From Cereibacter johrii (GTDB lineage Bacteria; Pseudomonadota; Alphaproteobacteria; Rhodobacterales; Rhodobacteraceae), in contig NZ_MABH01000138.1 of NCBI RefSeq assembly GCF_001720585.1, positions 1 through 40,252 of the forward strand: a stretch of 40,252 bases of DNA, read 5' to 3'. A program made the position numbers and the translations under genes. Below the pieces are notes generated by a model. That model was not told the origin of the DNA, did no database searches, and was given only the letters and a program-made list of their open reading frames with translations. Shown here piece by piece: positions 12,056 to 24,605 of the stretch (positions within the stretch are counted from its first letter, which is position 1; each line of letters opens with the position of its first letter).

Positions 12056-12080
12056 GGAACCGGCTGCGCGCCCTGCGGTT
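12056..12080 (+). promoter_or_regulatory. EcfG-like promoter of the DUF3008 gene
   Basis: GGAAC (12056-12060), 16 bases, GGTT (12077-12080). The flanks make a perfect 8-bp inverted repeat, GGGAACCG and CGGTTCCC. Transcription would start near 12088, about 60 nt before the GTG start. Because of the symmetry, the minus strand also reads GGAAC-N16-GGTT. Confidence 0.65.
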
Positions 12081-12149
12081 CCCTGCCCTGAGAATGAGGC
12101 CGGGCTGTCCGGCAGCCGGGCCTCCTGACACGAGCCTGCGAGGTGAACG

Positions 12150-12335
12150 GTGCCAGCAAAGTCCAAGGCCCAGCAGAAAGCCGCCGGAGCCGCCCTGTCG
12201 GCGAAGCGCGGCGACACGAAGAAGAGCGATCTGAAGGGAGCCTCGCGGAGCATGGAAGAGTCCATGACCGAGAAGGAACTGAAGGAATTGGCCGCGACCG
12301 AGCGGAAGGGCAAGCCGGAGCACAAGTCCGGCTGA
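12150..12335 (+). CDS. DUF3008 family small basic protein
   Basis: A 61-aa lysine-rich protein (start MPAKSKAQQKAAG, end RKGKPEHKSG) that fits DUF3008: an N-terminal PAKSKAQQ motif, a Gly/Ala-Lys stretch, and the SMTEKELKELAAT helix. It has no membrane segment or signal peptide, so it is presumably cytoplasmic. The start is GTG with AGGTGA 4 nt upstream; no ATG in frame gives the conserved beginning. Function is unknown. The family is common in soil alphaproteobacteria and often accompanies stress genes. It is a single gene between an EcfG-like promoter and a strong terminator. Confidence 0.85.
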   Translation: MPAKSKAQQKAAGAALSAKRGDTKKSDLKGASRSMEESMTEKELKELAATERKGKPEHKSG

Positions 12336-21299: not shown

Positions 21300-22079
21300 T
21301 CAGCGCAGACGGGCGAGCAGCGCCTCGGCCGCAGCCGGGTTCGCGACCTTGTGGCCCGAGATGACATAGAGGAACACATCGCGCGGCCGCTCGGGCGCCT
21401 CGGTCACGCGGGCGAGCCCCTCGGGGGCGCGGCCGGCCTCCCAGTCGCGGGCGCGGGTGGCCCATCGGTCCAGCGCTTCCGGCGGATAGCCCTCGGCGGG
21501 ACCCTCGCGGGTGCCCATGATGCGGGCATAGACGAAATCGGCGGTGGGATCGGCGATCTGCGGATGCTCGCTGTCGCCCTCCACCACGATCGCCACGTTT
21601 CGCTCGGCCGCCAGCGCCACGAAGGCCGGGTCGCGGAAGCTCTCGTGGCGCACCTCGACGGCATGGCGCAACCGCCGGCCCCTGTGCTCGGGCGGCAGGA
21701 GCGCGAGGAAGGCTGCGAAATCCTCGGGGTCGAAGGCCTTCGTCGGCAGGAACTGCCAGTTGATCGGCCCGAGCTTGGCGCCGAGCCGCAGGATCCCGCT
21801 GTCGAGGAAGCGGTCCACCGATGCGCCCGCCTCGGCGAGCTTCCTGCGGTTGGTGGCGAACCGGGGCGCCTTGAGGGCGAAGACGAAATCGTCCGGCACC
21901 TCGTCATGCCAGCGCGCGAAGCTCTCGGGCTTCTGCGAGCCGTAGTAGGTGCCGTTGATCTCGAGGGTGGTCAGGCGCGAGGCGGCATGGCCCAGCTCAC
22001 GCTTCTGCGGCAGCCCCTCGGGGTAGAAGGTGCCGCGCCAGGGCTCGAAGACCCAGCCGCCGATGCCGATGCGGATCAT
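21300..22079 (-). CDS. DUF72 (YecE-like) protein
   Basis: A 259-aa TIM-barrel-like protein of the DUF72/YecE family: starts MIRIGIGGWVFEPWRGTFYP, then LEINGTYYGSQKPESFARW, FALKAPRFATN, FLPTKAF, AVEVRHESF and VVEGDSEHP, which are the typical family blocks. No biochemical role is established. The ATG at 22079 is chosen because GGGAGGA is well placed and the family begins there; the frame is open further upstream without such support. It lies between the importer operon and the tiny-protein operon, on the same strand but behind a strong hairpin, so it is probably transcribed on its own. Confidence 0.88.
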   Translation of the reverse strand: MIRIGIGGWVFEPWRGTFYPEGLPQKRELGHAASRLTTLEINGTYYGSQKPESFARWHDEVPDDFVFALKAPRFATNRRKLAEAGASVDRFLDSGILRLGAKLGPINWQFLPTKAFDPEDFAAFLALLPPEHRGRRLRHAVEVRHESFRDPAFVALAAERNVAIVVEGDSEHPQIADPTADFVYARIMGTREGPAEGYPPEALDRWATRARDWEAGRAPEGLARVTEAPERPRDVFLYVISGHKVANPAAAEALLARLR

Positions 22080-22157
22080 GGCGTCCTCCCTGCCGCGAAA
22101 AGCCGAGCATGGCCGGGCCTGTCCGGCGGCGCAACCGCCCATCTGCGGTGGCCTTGC

Positions 22158-22189
22158 GGCGCGGGCGCGGGGGATGGCGCGCCCGCGCC
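22158..22189 (-). terminator. Terminator of the tiny-protein operon
   Basis: Perfect 12-bp stem GGCGCGGGCGCG/CGCGCCCGCGCC with an 8-nt loop, 5 bases past the last stop of the operon. There is no T-run. Confidence 0.65.
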
Positions 22190-22194
22190 TGCCG

Positions 22195-22383
22195 TCATTT
22201 GCCGTCGGGATCGTGGGTGTGGTGGCGGTCCTTCTCGCCGCCGCCGCCCGAGACCTTGCTCTGTTTGCGCGCGTCGCTGTCGGCGCCGGGCTTCGTCACC
22301 TCGAGCGGCGCGTCCGCATCCTGATGCGAGGAGCCGGGGCCGCCCTGACGGATGCTGGCCGGAGTCTTCTGGGAGGTCGACAT
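22195..22383 (-). CDS. Small hydrophilic protein, third gene of operon (62 aa)
   Basis: A 62-aa protein (MSTSQKTPASIRQGG ... HHTHDPDGK) rich in Gly (9 of 62), Ser, Asp, Lys and His, without Cys, Trp, Tyr or Phe and without a hydrophobic stretch. It is probably disordered and meets the glycine criterion of hydrophilins (over 6%). It starts one base after the stop of the second gene (TGACATG), with AGGAC upstream, so it is coupled. I do not recognise a family. A role as a stress protectant is inferred from composition and the shared promoter. Confidence 0.7.
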   Translation of the reverse strand: MSTSQKTPASIRQGGPGSSHQDADAPLEVTKPGADSDARKQSKVSGGGGEKDRHHTHDPDGK

Positions 22384-22384
22384 G

Positions 22385-22564
22385 TCAACGGTCCTGCTGA
22401 TGACCCTGATGGGTCGTGTTGATCTTGCTGTTCGCCTGCTGGCCCTGCTTGTCGGGATCCGGCCGGGATGCGGCCCCCGAGGTCTCGGGCGTCTCGTGGG
22501 CAGCGCCGCCGGGGCCCTTGTCGCTGCGGTTCGCGGGCGGGATAGGGGGCATTTTCGCGGTCAT
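22385..22564 (-). CDS. Small hydrophilic protein, second gene of operon (59 aa)
   Basis: A 59-aa protein (MTAKMPPIPPANRSDKGPGG ... HQGHQQDR). Gly 6 of 59, many Pro, Gln, Asn, His and charged residues, no aromatic residue and no Cys. It is probably disordered. The ATG overlaps the stop of the first gene (ATGA) and is preceded by GAGGAG, strong evidence that it is translated. No family recognised. It is flanked on both sides by proteins of similar composition. Confidence 0.7.
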   Translation of the reverse strand: MTAKMPPIPPANRSDKGPGGAAHETPETSGAASRPDPDKQGQQANSKINTTHQGHQQDR

Positions 22565-22788
22565 GGGCGCTCCTCGTCGTCGGTCCTGCGGTTGCCGGCA
22601 TGGTCCTGATACTGCTGCGTCTTGACGTAGCCGCCATCCTTGCCGCGGCTTTCGCTGCCCTGCTTGTCGCGGTTGGACAGCACGCCATTGGCCGGGATCT
22701 CGGCGGTCTCGGCTTCGGTCATGGCGCCGGTGCCGTCGCCCTTGCCCTTCACGCCCTGACCGAAGTGCTTCTTGTCCGCATGTGCCAT
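22561..22788 (-). CDS. Small hydrophilic protein, first gene of operon (75 aa)
   Basis: A 75-aa protein (MAHADKKHFGQGVKGKGDG ... RRTDDEERP). Gly 12 of 75, very rich in Lys, Asp, Glu, Gln and Arg, with no Cys or Trp and no membrane segment. A perfect AAGGAGG lies 5-6 nt before the ATG. The middle TEAETAEIPANGVLSNRDKQG and the end GGYVKTQQYQDHAGN look conserved in style, as in small stress proteins of Rhodobacteraceae, but I cannot name a family. It has its own EcfG-like promoter 42 nt upstream, inside the gap behind the GH13 gene. Confidence 0.75.
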   Translation of the reverse strand: MAHADKKHFGQGVKGKGDGTGAMTEAETAEIPANGVLSNRDKQGSESRGKDGGYVKTQQYQDHAGNRRTDDEERP

Positions 22789-22829
22789 CTGGTCCTCCTT
22801 GCGGCGCGTTGCTTCGCCGTCAGGGAGCC

Positions 22830-22854
22830 AACCGGAGGTCGGGGCGGATGTTCC
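22830..22854 (-). promoter_or_regulatory. EcfG-like promoter of the tiny-protein operon
   Basis: On the minus strand: GGAAC (22854-22850), 16 bases, GGTT (22833-22830); an exact match. Predicted start near 22822, giving a leader of about 34 nt that includes the AAGGAGG. Confidence 0.65.
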
Positions 22855-22880: not shown

Positions 22881-24527
22881 TCAGCTCTCGAACCGCAGCC
22901 AGCGCAGCCCGTAGCCTCCGAGCTCGACCGTCAGCTCGTCCTTGCGCAGCGAGGCCTTGCCTTGGCCCAGGACGGGCCGCAGCCGGCCCAGCCCCGAGGC
23001 CTTCGGCAGCGTGAGCGTCACCGTCTGCGGCTCGGGCCCGAGATTGGCGAGAGCGATGAGGGTGCGGCTCTCCCAGTCGTGGCGGATGGCGAAGATCGAG
23101 GCTTGGGGCAACGGCAGCACGGCATGGTCGCCGAAGGCGATCTCGGGGCATTCCCGCCGCCGCCGCAGGAGATGCTCCATGAAATGGAACATCGTGTCCG
23201 GCCGGTCCTGCTGGTCGGTGGCATTGACCTTGTCCGGGCCCCAGCGCGGATCCGAGACCATGGGCCGGTGCAGGGCCTCGGTGCCCGCGTCCGAGAAGCC
23301 GCCGTGCGGGCCGGCCTCCCACTGCATCGGTGCGCGCACGGCGAGCCGTCCGGGGATCTCGAGATTTTCCGCCATGCCGATCTCCTCGCCGTAGAAGATC
23401 ACGGGCGATCCCGGCATCGAGGCCATCAGCGCATAGGCCATGCGGAGCCGGTCGGAATCGCCCTTCAGCATGGTGGGCATCCGCCGCCGCAGCCCGCGTC
23501 CAAAGAGCTGCATCGAGGGTTCGGGCCCGAAGGAGGCGAAGCCCTCCTGCCGCTCGGCCTCGGTCAGCTTGTCGAGCGACCATTCGTCATGGTTGCGCAG
23601 GAAATGGGCCCAGCCATCGTCGGGCGCGAGTTCGGGCATGTGGCGCAGCCCGTGGACGATGGGCCCCGCGTCCTCGCGGGCGAGCGCCAGCGCCATCGCC
23701 TGATTGAGGTTGAAGTCGAGGCACATGTGCAGCTCGTCGCCGTCCTCGTCGCCGAAGAAGCGGCGCACGTCCGGATAGTCGAGGTTCACTTCGCCCAGAA
23801 GCACCGCATCGCCCGACCGGCGGTTGATGAAGGCGCGCAGGTCGCGCAGCCAGCGGTGGGGCGTGAAGCCCGTGTCCACCGTCGACATCTGCTCGAGCAG
23901 GAACGGCACGGCATCCACGCGGAAGCCCGAGAGACCGAGCTGGAGCCAGAATCCCACGATCCGCCGGATCTCGTCGCGCACCGCGCGATTCTCGACGTTG
24001 AGGTCCGGCTGGTGGCTGTAGAAGCGGTGGAGATAGTATTTCCCGGCCTTCGCATCCCAGGTCCAGCTACTGTTCTCTTCTCCGGGGAAGACCAGCGAGG
24101 CGGCATCCTCCTCGGGCTTCTCGTCGCGCCAGACATACCAGTCGCGGTAGGGCGAATCGGGGTCGGCGCGCGAGGCCTGGAACCAGGGATGCTCGCGCGA
24201 GGTGTGGTTCACCACGAGGTCCGCGATCACCCGCATCCCGCGATCCTGGGCCGCGCGCAGGAATTCGACGAAATCGCCCAGCGTGCCCAGCCGGGGATCG
24301 ACGGCATAATAGTCGGTGATGTCGTAGCCGTCGTCCTGGTTCGGGCTCGGATAGAAAGGCATCAGCCAGATGCAGCTCACCCCCAGCCGGTCGAGATGGT
24401 CGAGCCGCCGGGTGAGCCCCGGGAAATCCCCGATCCCGTCGCCGTTGCTGTCCTGAAAGGTCTCGACATCGAGACAATAGAAGACGGCGTTCTTCCACCA
24501 GACATCGCTCGTGCGGCTGATATCCAT
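22881..24527 (-). CDS. GH13 alpha-glucan enzyme, trehalose-synthase-like
   Basis: A 548-aa GH13 enzyme. The start WWKNAVFYCLDVETF, then DSNGDGIGDFPGL and YSHQPDLNVEN, resemble trehalose synthase (maltose-trehalose isomerase). Counting from the alternative GTG at 24557 (10 residues more), region I is DLVVNH (113-118), region II GFRVDAV with nucleophile D215, region III GEVNLD with acid E256, region IV NHD with D324, so it should be active. The exact reaction (TreS isomerase, alpha-glucosidase or glucosyltransferase) is not certain. The ATG at 24527 is preferred because the GGGAGG at 24557-24562 is too close for the GTG; instead it fits a 6-codon leader (24550-24530) ending 2 bases before this ATG. 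An exact EcfG-like promoter lies upstream. Confidence 0.85.
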   Translation of the reverse strand: MDISRTSDVWWKNAVFYCLDVETFQDSNGDGIGDFPGLTRRLDHLDRLGVSCIWLMPFYPSPNQDDGYDITDYYAVDPRLGTLGDFVEFLRAAQDRGMRVIADLVVNHTSREHPWFQASRADPDSPYRDWYVWRDEKPEEDAASLVFPGEENSSWTWDAKAGKYYLHRFYSHQPDLNVENRAVRDEIRRIVGFWLQLGLSGFRVDAVPFLLEQMSTVDTGFTPHRWLRDLRAFINRRSGDAVLLGEVNLDYPDVRRFFGDEDGDELHMCLDFNLNQAMALALAREDAGPIVHGLRHMPELAPDDGWAHFLRNHDEWSLDKLTEAERQEGFASFGPEPSMQLFGRGLRRRMPTMLKGDSDRLRMAYALMASMPGSPVIFYGEEIGMAENLEIPGRLAVRAPMQWEAGPHGGFSDAGTEALHRPMVSDPRWGPDKVNATDQQDRPDTMFHFMEHLLRRRRECPEIAFGDHAVLPLPQASIFAIRHDWESRTLIALANLGPEPQTVTLTLPKASGLGRLRPVLGQGKASLRKDELTVELGGYGLRWLRFES

Positions 24528-24529
24528 CC

Positions 24530-24550
24530 TCAGCCTGCCCAGATCCGCAT
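24530..24550 (-). CDS. Possible leader peptide of 6 codons before the GH13 gene
   Basis: ATG CGG ATC TGG GCA GGC TGA, encoding MRIWAG. GGGAGG stands 6 nt before its ATG, the ideal distance, and its stop ends 2 bases before the GH13 ATG. Such spacing suggests translational coupling by re-initiation. Nothing shows that the peptide itself has a function. Confidence 0.4.
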   Translation of the reverse strand: MRIWAG

Positions 24551-24579
24551 CGGTCACCTCCCGGAAAATCAGGGAAGGG

Positions 24580-24605
24580 AACGCGCCGTGCAGAGGCGAG
24601 GTTCC
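24580..24605 (-). promoter_or_regulatory. EcfG-like promoter of the GH13 gene
   Basis: On the minus strand: GGAAC (24605-24601), 17 bases, CGTT (24583-24580); an exact match to the strict form. It continues as CGTTCCC, so the site is a partial dyad. Predicted start near 24573, about 10 nt before the ribosome site. Confidence 0.7.

Follow-up and report, generated by a model that had tools for sequence, protein, structure and literature searches.

The window, a stretch of 40,252 nucleotides of the Cereibacter johrii genome, contains three small genes that follow each other on the minus strand between positions 22195 and 22788. Gene 1 (o1, 22561-22788) encodes a protein of 75 aa (P0001, MAHADKKHFGQG...VLSNRDK...), gene 2 (o2, 22385-22564) a protein of 59 aa (P0002, MTAKMPPIPPANRS...NTTHQGHQQDR), and gene 3 (o3, 22195-22383) a protein of 62 aa (P0003, MSTSQKTPASIRQGGPG...SGGGGEKDRHHTHDPDGK). 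The first two genes overlap by ATGA, and o2 is separated from o3 by a single base (TGA-c-ATG). On the same strand, a ribosome-binding site (AGGAGG, 22794-22799) stands 5 nt ahead of the ATG of o1, and an EcfG-type promoter of the three genes, GGAAC-N16-GGTT, occupies 22830-22854. Past o3 lies a GC-rich hairpin (22158-22189, minus strand) with a 12-bp stem and without a T run; its z-score is -2.2, 7 of 200 shuffles fold equally well or better, and its stem arms recur past the corresponding genes of the relative G004 (L010). Gene sizes, junctions, ribosome site and hairpin are all as the original prediction had read them. Upstream is a TreS-like GH13 gene (22881-24557, minus strand, 558 aa, GTG start, Pfam Alpha-amylase PF00128) with an EcfG-type promoter of its own, GGAAC-N17-CGTT (24580-24605, minus strand), which is found at the same place in the relatives L110 and L111, three species in all. 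Downstream is a DUF72 gene (21300-22142, minus strand), which follows the o1-o2-o3 cluster also in G002 and G004. The expectation that the middle gene would often be missed by annotation did not hold, as o2 was annotated in all five of the gene-table records examined that contain it.

Homologues of the three genes have a wide but patchy distribution. Matches to o1 were found in 4 of 61 relatives, and profile searches in which the best 14-16 candidates were scored per genome placed o1 in at least 6 of 394 genomes of the family, o2 in at least 8 of 385 sampled genomes of the class (four of the eight being weak, E 5e-5 to 5e-4) and o3 in at least 6 of the same number of sampled class genomes, the own genome being counted each time; because scoring was confined to those candidates, absence from the other genomes is unproven. 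A scan of genome_contigs for o1, with two short peptide patterns as the query, returned 63 loci, all of them alphaproteobacterial by their titles and organism names. Among 72,556 plasmid records, 148 matched o2, 68 matched o1 and 146 matched o3, and the genera of these records are alphaproteobacterial as well. The best place for o3 had 60-80% identity in 142 of the 146 plasmid records, and in the best 40 of them identity to the window o3 was 69-79%; homologues of o1 were up to 96% identical to it. A phage origin was considered for o3, and no record of the phage collection matched it at E 0.01.

Conservation of the gene order, which had been proposed as a check, is found in part of these loci. 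The order 1-2-3 is kept in Rubellimicrobium, Rhizobium, Xaviernesmea and Tabrizicola, and is rotated in Methylobacterium and others. When the 63 loci were read with the three profiles, o1 stood alone in 40, 1-2-3 occurred in 10 and 2-3-1 in 7 (in some with a gap before o1), followed by 1-2 in three, 2-1 in two and 1-3 in one. On plasmids, 1-2-3 was present in R. leguminosarum WSM1325, R. etli CIAT 652 and R. laguerreae, and the stretches examined from Sinorhizobium, Ochrobactrum, Neorhizobium, Rhizobium sp. 11515TR and Azospirillum carried 2-3. Since o1 is solitary in 40 of the 63 loci, the three genes need not act as a set. The window o3 is 76-79% identical to the Rhizobiaceae copies, 66% to that of Tabrizicola and 54-61% to those of Rubellimicrobium (L024, L027, L130, L026 and the Rubellimicrobium loci), and this greater closeness to three Rhizobiaceae copies hints at horizontal transfer.

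To describe the promoter we used 89 clusters from 85 loci, hand-chosen from search results and including many related species, so that the counts are phylogenetically non-independent. In 49 of the 89 clusters, the 300 nt upstream contained the motif GGAAC-N15-18-(C/G)GTT, compared with 2.7% of 12,596 controls taken from those loci and 0.75% among 17,800 shuffled sequences. When the first base of the -10 element was left free (GGAAC-N15-18-NGTT), the motif was found in the 300 nt upstream of 64 clusters, and at -110 to -45 in 57 clusters, compared with 0.66% of 6323 controls. The spacing was 16 or 17 in all 57 sites, and the -10 element was GGTT in 33, CGTT in 11, TGTT in 8 and AGTT in 5. The motif published for R. 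etli is GGAAC-N16-CGTT (PMC3892343), from which the window promoter of o1 differs by one -10 base. The 'exact' EcfG-like promoter of the original prediction is indeed an EcfG-type promoter, and the word exact calls for this qualification. We also dropped an initial requirement of CGTT for a valid promoter, as GGTT is the commonest form before the homologues. The GGAAC motif was absent from 25 of the 89 clusters, and in 9 of these 25 it was replaced by GGATC (25 of 6214 in the control), with 8 of the 9 being o1-only loci from Rhizobium-type records. In these eight (L040, L045, L046, L047, L051, L052, L053 and L055), GGATC stands at the -35 position upstream of o1 with similar spacing and a similar -10 element, and it may be read by a different sigma factor.

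The own genome encodes NepR, PhyR (with the receiver and PhyR sigma-like domains) and an adjacent sigma-70 family protein, and GGAAC-N16-CGTT is present on both strands between them. We name this sigma factor EcfG from its position next to NepR and PhyR, and from an arrangement like that of RSP_1272 (PMC5830050), not from a model of its own. The arrangement in R. sphaeroides is the same, with 45% identity between RSP_1272 and RpoE2, and 25% between NepR and a protein of 68 aa (PMC5830050). With PhyR, NepR and a putative EcfG all present, the idea that the genus is without EcfG proved wrong.

In the same genome, GGAAC-N16-GGTT occurs 58 times, compared with 6 for the reversed pattern, and GGAAC-N16-CGTT occurs 44 times, compared with 20. 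We examined 30 of the 58 GGTT sites and 8 of the 44 CGTT sites, which gave 29 gene rows; with duplicates (L134, L160 and, twice, L163), the window operon itself (L161), a gene distant from the motif (L004) and doubtful frames (L136, L141, L148) omitted, 20 of these genes were scanned, and 16 belonged to a Pfam family. Cu/Zn superoxide dismutase (SodC), Mn-catalase, DUF892 (twice), DJ-1/PfpI and DUF3008 were among them, and genes of this kind are usual members of a general stress regulon. The motif also stands ahead of genes without an evident stress role, such as Vsr and PHB depolymerase, and sites of this type may be due to chance. Within the window, a gene for a small DUF3008 protein (12150-12332, plus strand, GTG start) is preceded by GGAAC-N16-GGTT at 12056-12080, and this unit (12056-12332, plus strand) is a probable further EcfG target; in Tistrella, a DUF3008 gene lies immediately ahead of an o1 homologue. 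The likeness to the known PhyR-NepR-EcfG regulons (RpoE2 of S. meliloti, EcfG1 of R. etli) extends over the motif, its spacing, the cassette and the presence of sodC, catalase and DUF892 among the genes preceded by the motif, whereas the -10 element before o1-o3 clusters is mostly GGTT instead of CGTT and dependence on the sigma factor is predicted from sequence. A strong caution comes from R. sphaeroides, whose PhyR mutant did not differ from the wild type in its response to salt, heat or oxidative stress but was defective in membrane stress and UV survival (PMC5830050), so that the relevant stress may be membrane damage instead of drying.

Because spurious frames abound in GC-rich sequence, the three genes might in principle be chance reading frames. 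A dN/dS near 1, which the original prediction had named as one result that would overturn it, was approached in few cases: the ratio could be used in 35 of 37 gene comparisons between related species and was below 0.5 in 32 of the 35, the three exceptions being 0.64, 0.75 and 1.00. For the window genes, dN/dS was 0.20 for o1 against its nearest relative G004 (seven changes), 0.41 for o2 against C. changlensis, and 0.26 and 0.15 for o3 against a C. azotoformans fusion and Xaviernesmea, respectively. A simple binomial test gave p < 0.05 in 7 of 9 window comparisons, and 0.068 and 0.075 in the two short ones. The third-position GC content is 0.85-0.89. Homologues, gene order, dN/dS and promoter are all conserved, which places the locus beyond chance. 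We judge from this conservation that o1, o2 and o3 are real genes under mostly purifying selection; the chance reading is refuted by it, and its probability is practically nil.

The genes have nevertheless been lost or rearranged within the genus. G004 has kept o1 but carries a deletion that joins the beginning of o2 with the final codons of o3. Luteovulum (Cereibacter) azotoformans ka25 has a natural in-frame fusion between the first half of o1 and o3 (L043 3001-3279, the same as L011 1360-1638). No o1 match was found in G001 or G003, of which G003 still has the DUF72 gene and G001 has no match to it. The trio is therefore dispensable in some species. Such losses in sister species, together with the patchy distribution described above and the many plasmid copies, would fit decaying or selfish plasmid-borne remnants without a cell function. 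Purifying selection and the conservation of order and promoter speak against this explanation, and we consider it very unlikely.

The three proteins are rich in glycine (16.0, 10.2 and 14.5% for o1, o2 and o3) and poor in hydrophobic residues (V+I+L+M+F+W+Y+C 13.3, 6.8 and 8.1%, compared with 28-34% in ten other window genes), as had been predicted, and their mean Kyte-Doolittle values are -1.46, -1.49 and -1.43. The hydrophilin rule asks for more than 6% glycine and a hydrophilicity index above 1.0 (PMC7448490, restating Garay-Arroyo et al. 2000), and o1, o2 and o3 all satisfy it, so the hydrophilin-like look stands. Among distinct homologues that scored above 40 bits with the profiles, the same composition was found in 68 of 69 o1, 37 of 37 o2 and 34 of 34 o3 proteins, compared with 15 of 311 neighbour ORFs. 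A disorder prediction had been suggested as a further check: all three proteins are predicted to be disordered by the charge-hydropathy rule, and AlphaFold2 models of o1 and o3, built from natural alignments of 42 and 18 sequences, had a mean pLDDT of 58.8 and 59.5, respectively, and contained no helix as long as four residues.

P0001-P0003 had no family match in Pfam or NCBIfam. When 42 o1, 23 o2 and 18 o3 proteins (the window's included) were searched against Pfam, one weak match per set was returned (QueG_DUF1730, MethyTransf_Reg and Coleoptericin, E 0.014-0.052, one protein each), which we judged to be chance. No PDB chain matched the three profiles up to E = 1, and when the o3 profile was compared with those of o1 and o2, it showed kinship to neither. 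The proteins thus resemble hydrophilins in composition, predicted disorder and stress-type promoter, and differ from them in carrying conserved sequence blocks and in forming one operon of three different families. We class them as hydrophilin-like by composition and predicted disorder. LEA proteins and the bacterial stress families of Pfam are likewise small, hydrophilic and disordered, and o1-o3 differ from these in the lack of a family match. A comparable case comes from Zymomonas mobilis, which is also alphaproteobacterial. Its Zmo0994 is reported as an LEA-like bacterial stress protein (PMC7448490), and we liken it to o1-o3 by description only.

The upstream TreS-like protein matches TIGR02456 best, over nearly its full length, with 545.1 bits. 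Since this is below the equivalog cut-off of 678, the gene cannot be called TreS outright; the trehalose-synthase-like neighbour of the original prediction is present, with the same kind of promoter. Other clusters have other enzymes of this type beside them. R. etli and R. laguerreae have TreZ as the neighbour (704 and 711 bits, cut-off 539), and in R. etli MalQ comes next; two Neorhizobium plasmids have a TreC-like protein (588 and 616 bits, above the NF008183 subfamily cut-off of 535 and below the 799 of TIGR02403), and a Rhizobium MAG has TreY (901 bits, cut-off 499). In WSM1325, a short TreC/TreS-like GH13 gene fragment (L081 950-1357, minus strand), probably a remnant, lies near the 1-2-3 cluster. 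Of 43 loci that contain o2 or o3, 9 have a GH13 relative of the TreS-like protein, a count that mixes unequal flanks and includes plasmid loci hand-picked from hit lists, compared with 0 of 40 genome_contigs loci that contain o1 only; when flanks were held equal at 3 kb, the genome_contigs loci gave 2 of 23 versus 0 of 40. The strength of the trehalose link is in the four different trehalose-type enzymes (TreS-like, TreZ, TreY and TreC-like), not in the bare count. In a Pfam scan of 100 of the 311 neighbour ORFs, which had been predicted with a rough rule and come from o2/o3 loci only, Alpha-amylase appeared 4 times and MFS, the commonest, 5 times among the 25 commonest of 104 families; the clusters have no fixed neighbour among these 100 proteins. 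DUF808 was seen in three of the 100, and a DUF808 gene lies behind the 1-2-3 cluster of Rubellimicrobium aerolatum (L020 3754-4719).

The family alignments contain many residues that are invariant or almost so. The mean frequency of the majority residue in successive thirds is 0.76, 0.70 and 0.52 in o1, 0.75, 0.38 and 0.80 in o2, and 0.85, 0.53 and 0.71 in o3; o2 and o3 are conserved at their ends and variable in the middle, and o1 is conserved in its first two thirds. Such strictly conserved short blocks are more than a bulk protectant needs, and they count against a plain-protectant reading. The blocks hint at specific binding, which is the main rival reading: the proteins would be adaptors or scaffolds whose conserved blocks bind particular partners, be it an enzyme, RNA, a membrane or one another, with a variable linker in o2 and o3 and with disorder as the means. 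The conserved outer thirds and variable middle of o2 and o3, the near-invariant residues and the natural o1-o3 fusion of C. azotoformans all favour it, and the fusion lends weak support to a shared task of o1 and o3, although it may be a mere deletion. Against specific adaptors, every family among the 100 scanned neighbour proteins appeared five times or fewer. We regard this rival as a genuine but tentative possibility.

Another rival would make o3 a metal or ligand binder through its tail, SGGGGE-D-HHTHD, and the trio a system that handles metal or oxidative stress. D52 is invariant and H54 and H55 are nearly so in 18 aligned o3 proteins, and the genes for SodC and Mn-catalase stand behind the same motif in the own genome. 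The HHTH stretch, however, is missing from o3 of Rubellimicrobium roseum (L021), and the window o1 and o2 have three scattered histidines each, which makes metal binding an unlikely function.

The reading that we prefer, and consider moderately probable, is an EcfG-driven stress operon of disordered hydrophilins that protect together with trehalose. Its description as stress-induced hydrophilins with trehalose is well supported by the predicted regulation and by composition. Activated PhyR would take the anti-sigma factor NepR off the EcfG-type sigma factor, and the freed sigma factor would read GGAAC-N16/17-(G/C)GTT ahead of the TreS-like gene and, separately, ahead of o1-o2-o3. Three small, soluble, disordered hydrophilins would then accumulate in stress, most likely as protectants that bind water, prevent aggregation or shield membranes or proteins, and they would act with the disaccharide pool set by the trehalose-type enzyme. 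It is in this way that we infer EcfG transcription of the operon, accumulation of the proteins and protection, and o1-o3 with the trehalose-type gene are probably part of a kit that protects against stresses such as drying or membrane damage. The original prediction is supported in part, namely in the three conserved genes, their composition and predicted disorder, an EcfG-type promoter with its cassette and trehalose-type neighbours; protective activity, induction by drying or salt and dependence on EcfG are its predicted side. It is also conceivable, if rather unlikely, that o1-o3 are unrelated disordered partners of one stress assembly, in which the blocks would dock among themselves or on a single client, with a mesh set by the linkers and filled by trehalose. 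If so, the product of the general stress response would be a defined protein-sugar matrix and not loose protectants.

Hydrophilins and EcfG targets are known kinds, and the three families and their operon appear, from the comparisons made here, to be new members of both. No description of these three proteins was found in open-licence papers, searched without supplements. For S. meliloti, we guessed SMb20333-SMb20341 and SMb22021 as locus tags of homologues, which may be wrong; SMb20338-SMb20341 and SMb22021 were not found in open-licence papers. The o2-o3 pair of S. meliloti strain 1021 is placed at about 345349-345724 on pSymB. The main text of a study of the S. meliloti small proteome (PMC10117765), as far as it was available, has no 'RpoE2', 'hydrophil' or 'disorder', and the available parts of PMC3518184, on R. 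etli trehalose genes, and of PMC6180224 have nothing on the o1-o3 genes. The families may be listed unnamed in published regulon tables.

Overexpression of rpoE2 in S. meliloti raises a set of protein-coding genes of which the majority (150) are without a predicted function (PMC3616915). For much of the alphaproteobacterial general stress regulon no function is known, and o1-o3 are probably families of this kind that are now defined by alignments, a conserved promoter, a recurring gene order and a link to trehalose-type enzymes. Their carriers include bacteria of soil and plants, Rhizobium and Sinorhizobium among them, in which survival of drying is of practical interest.
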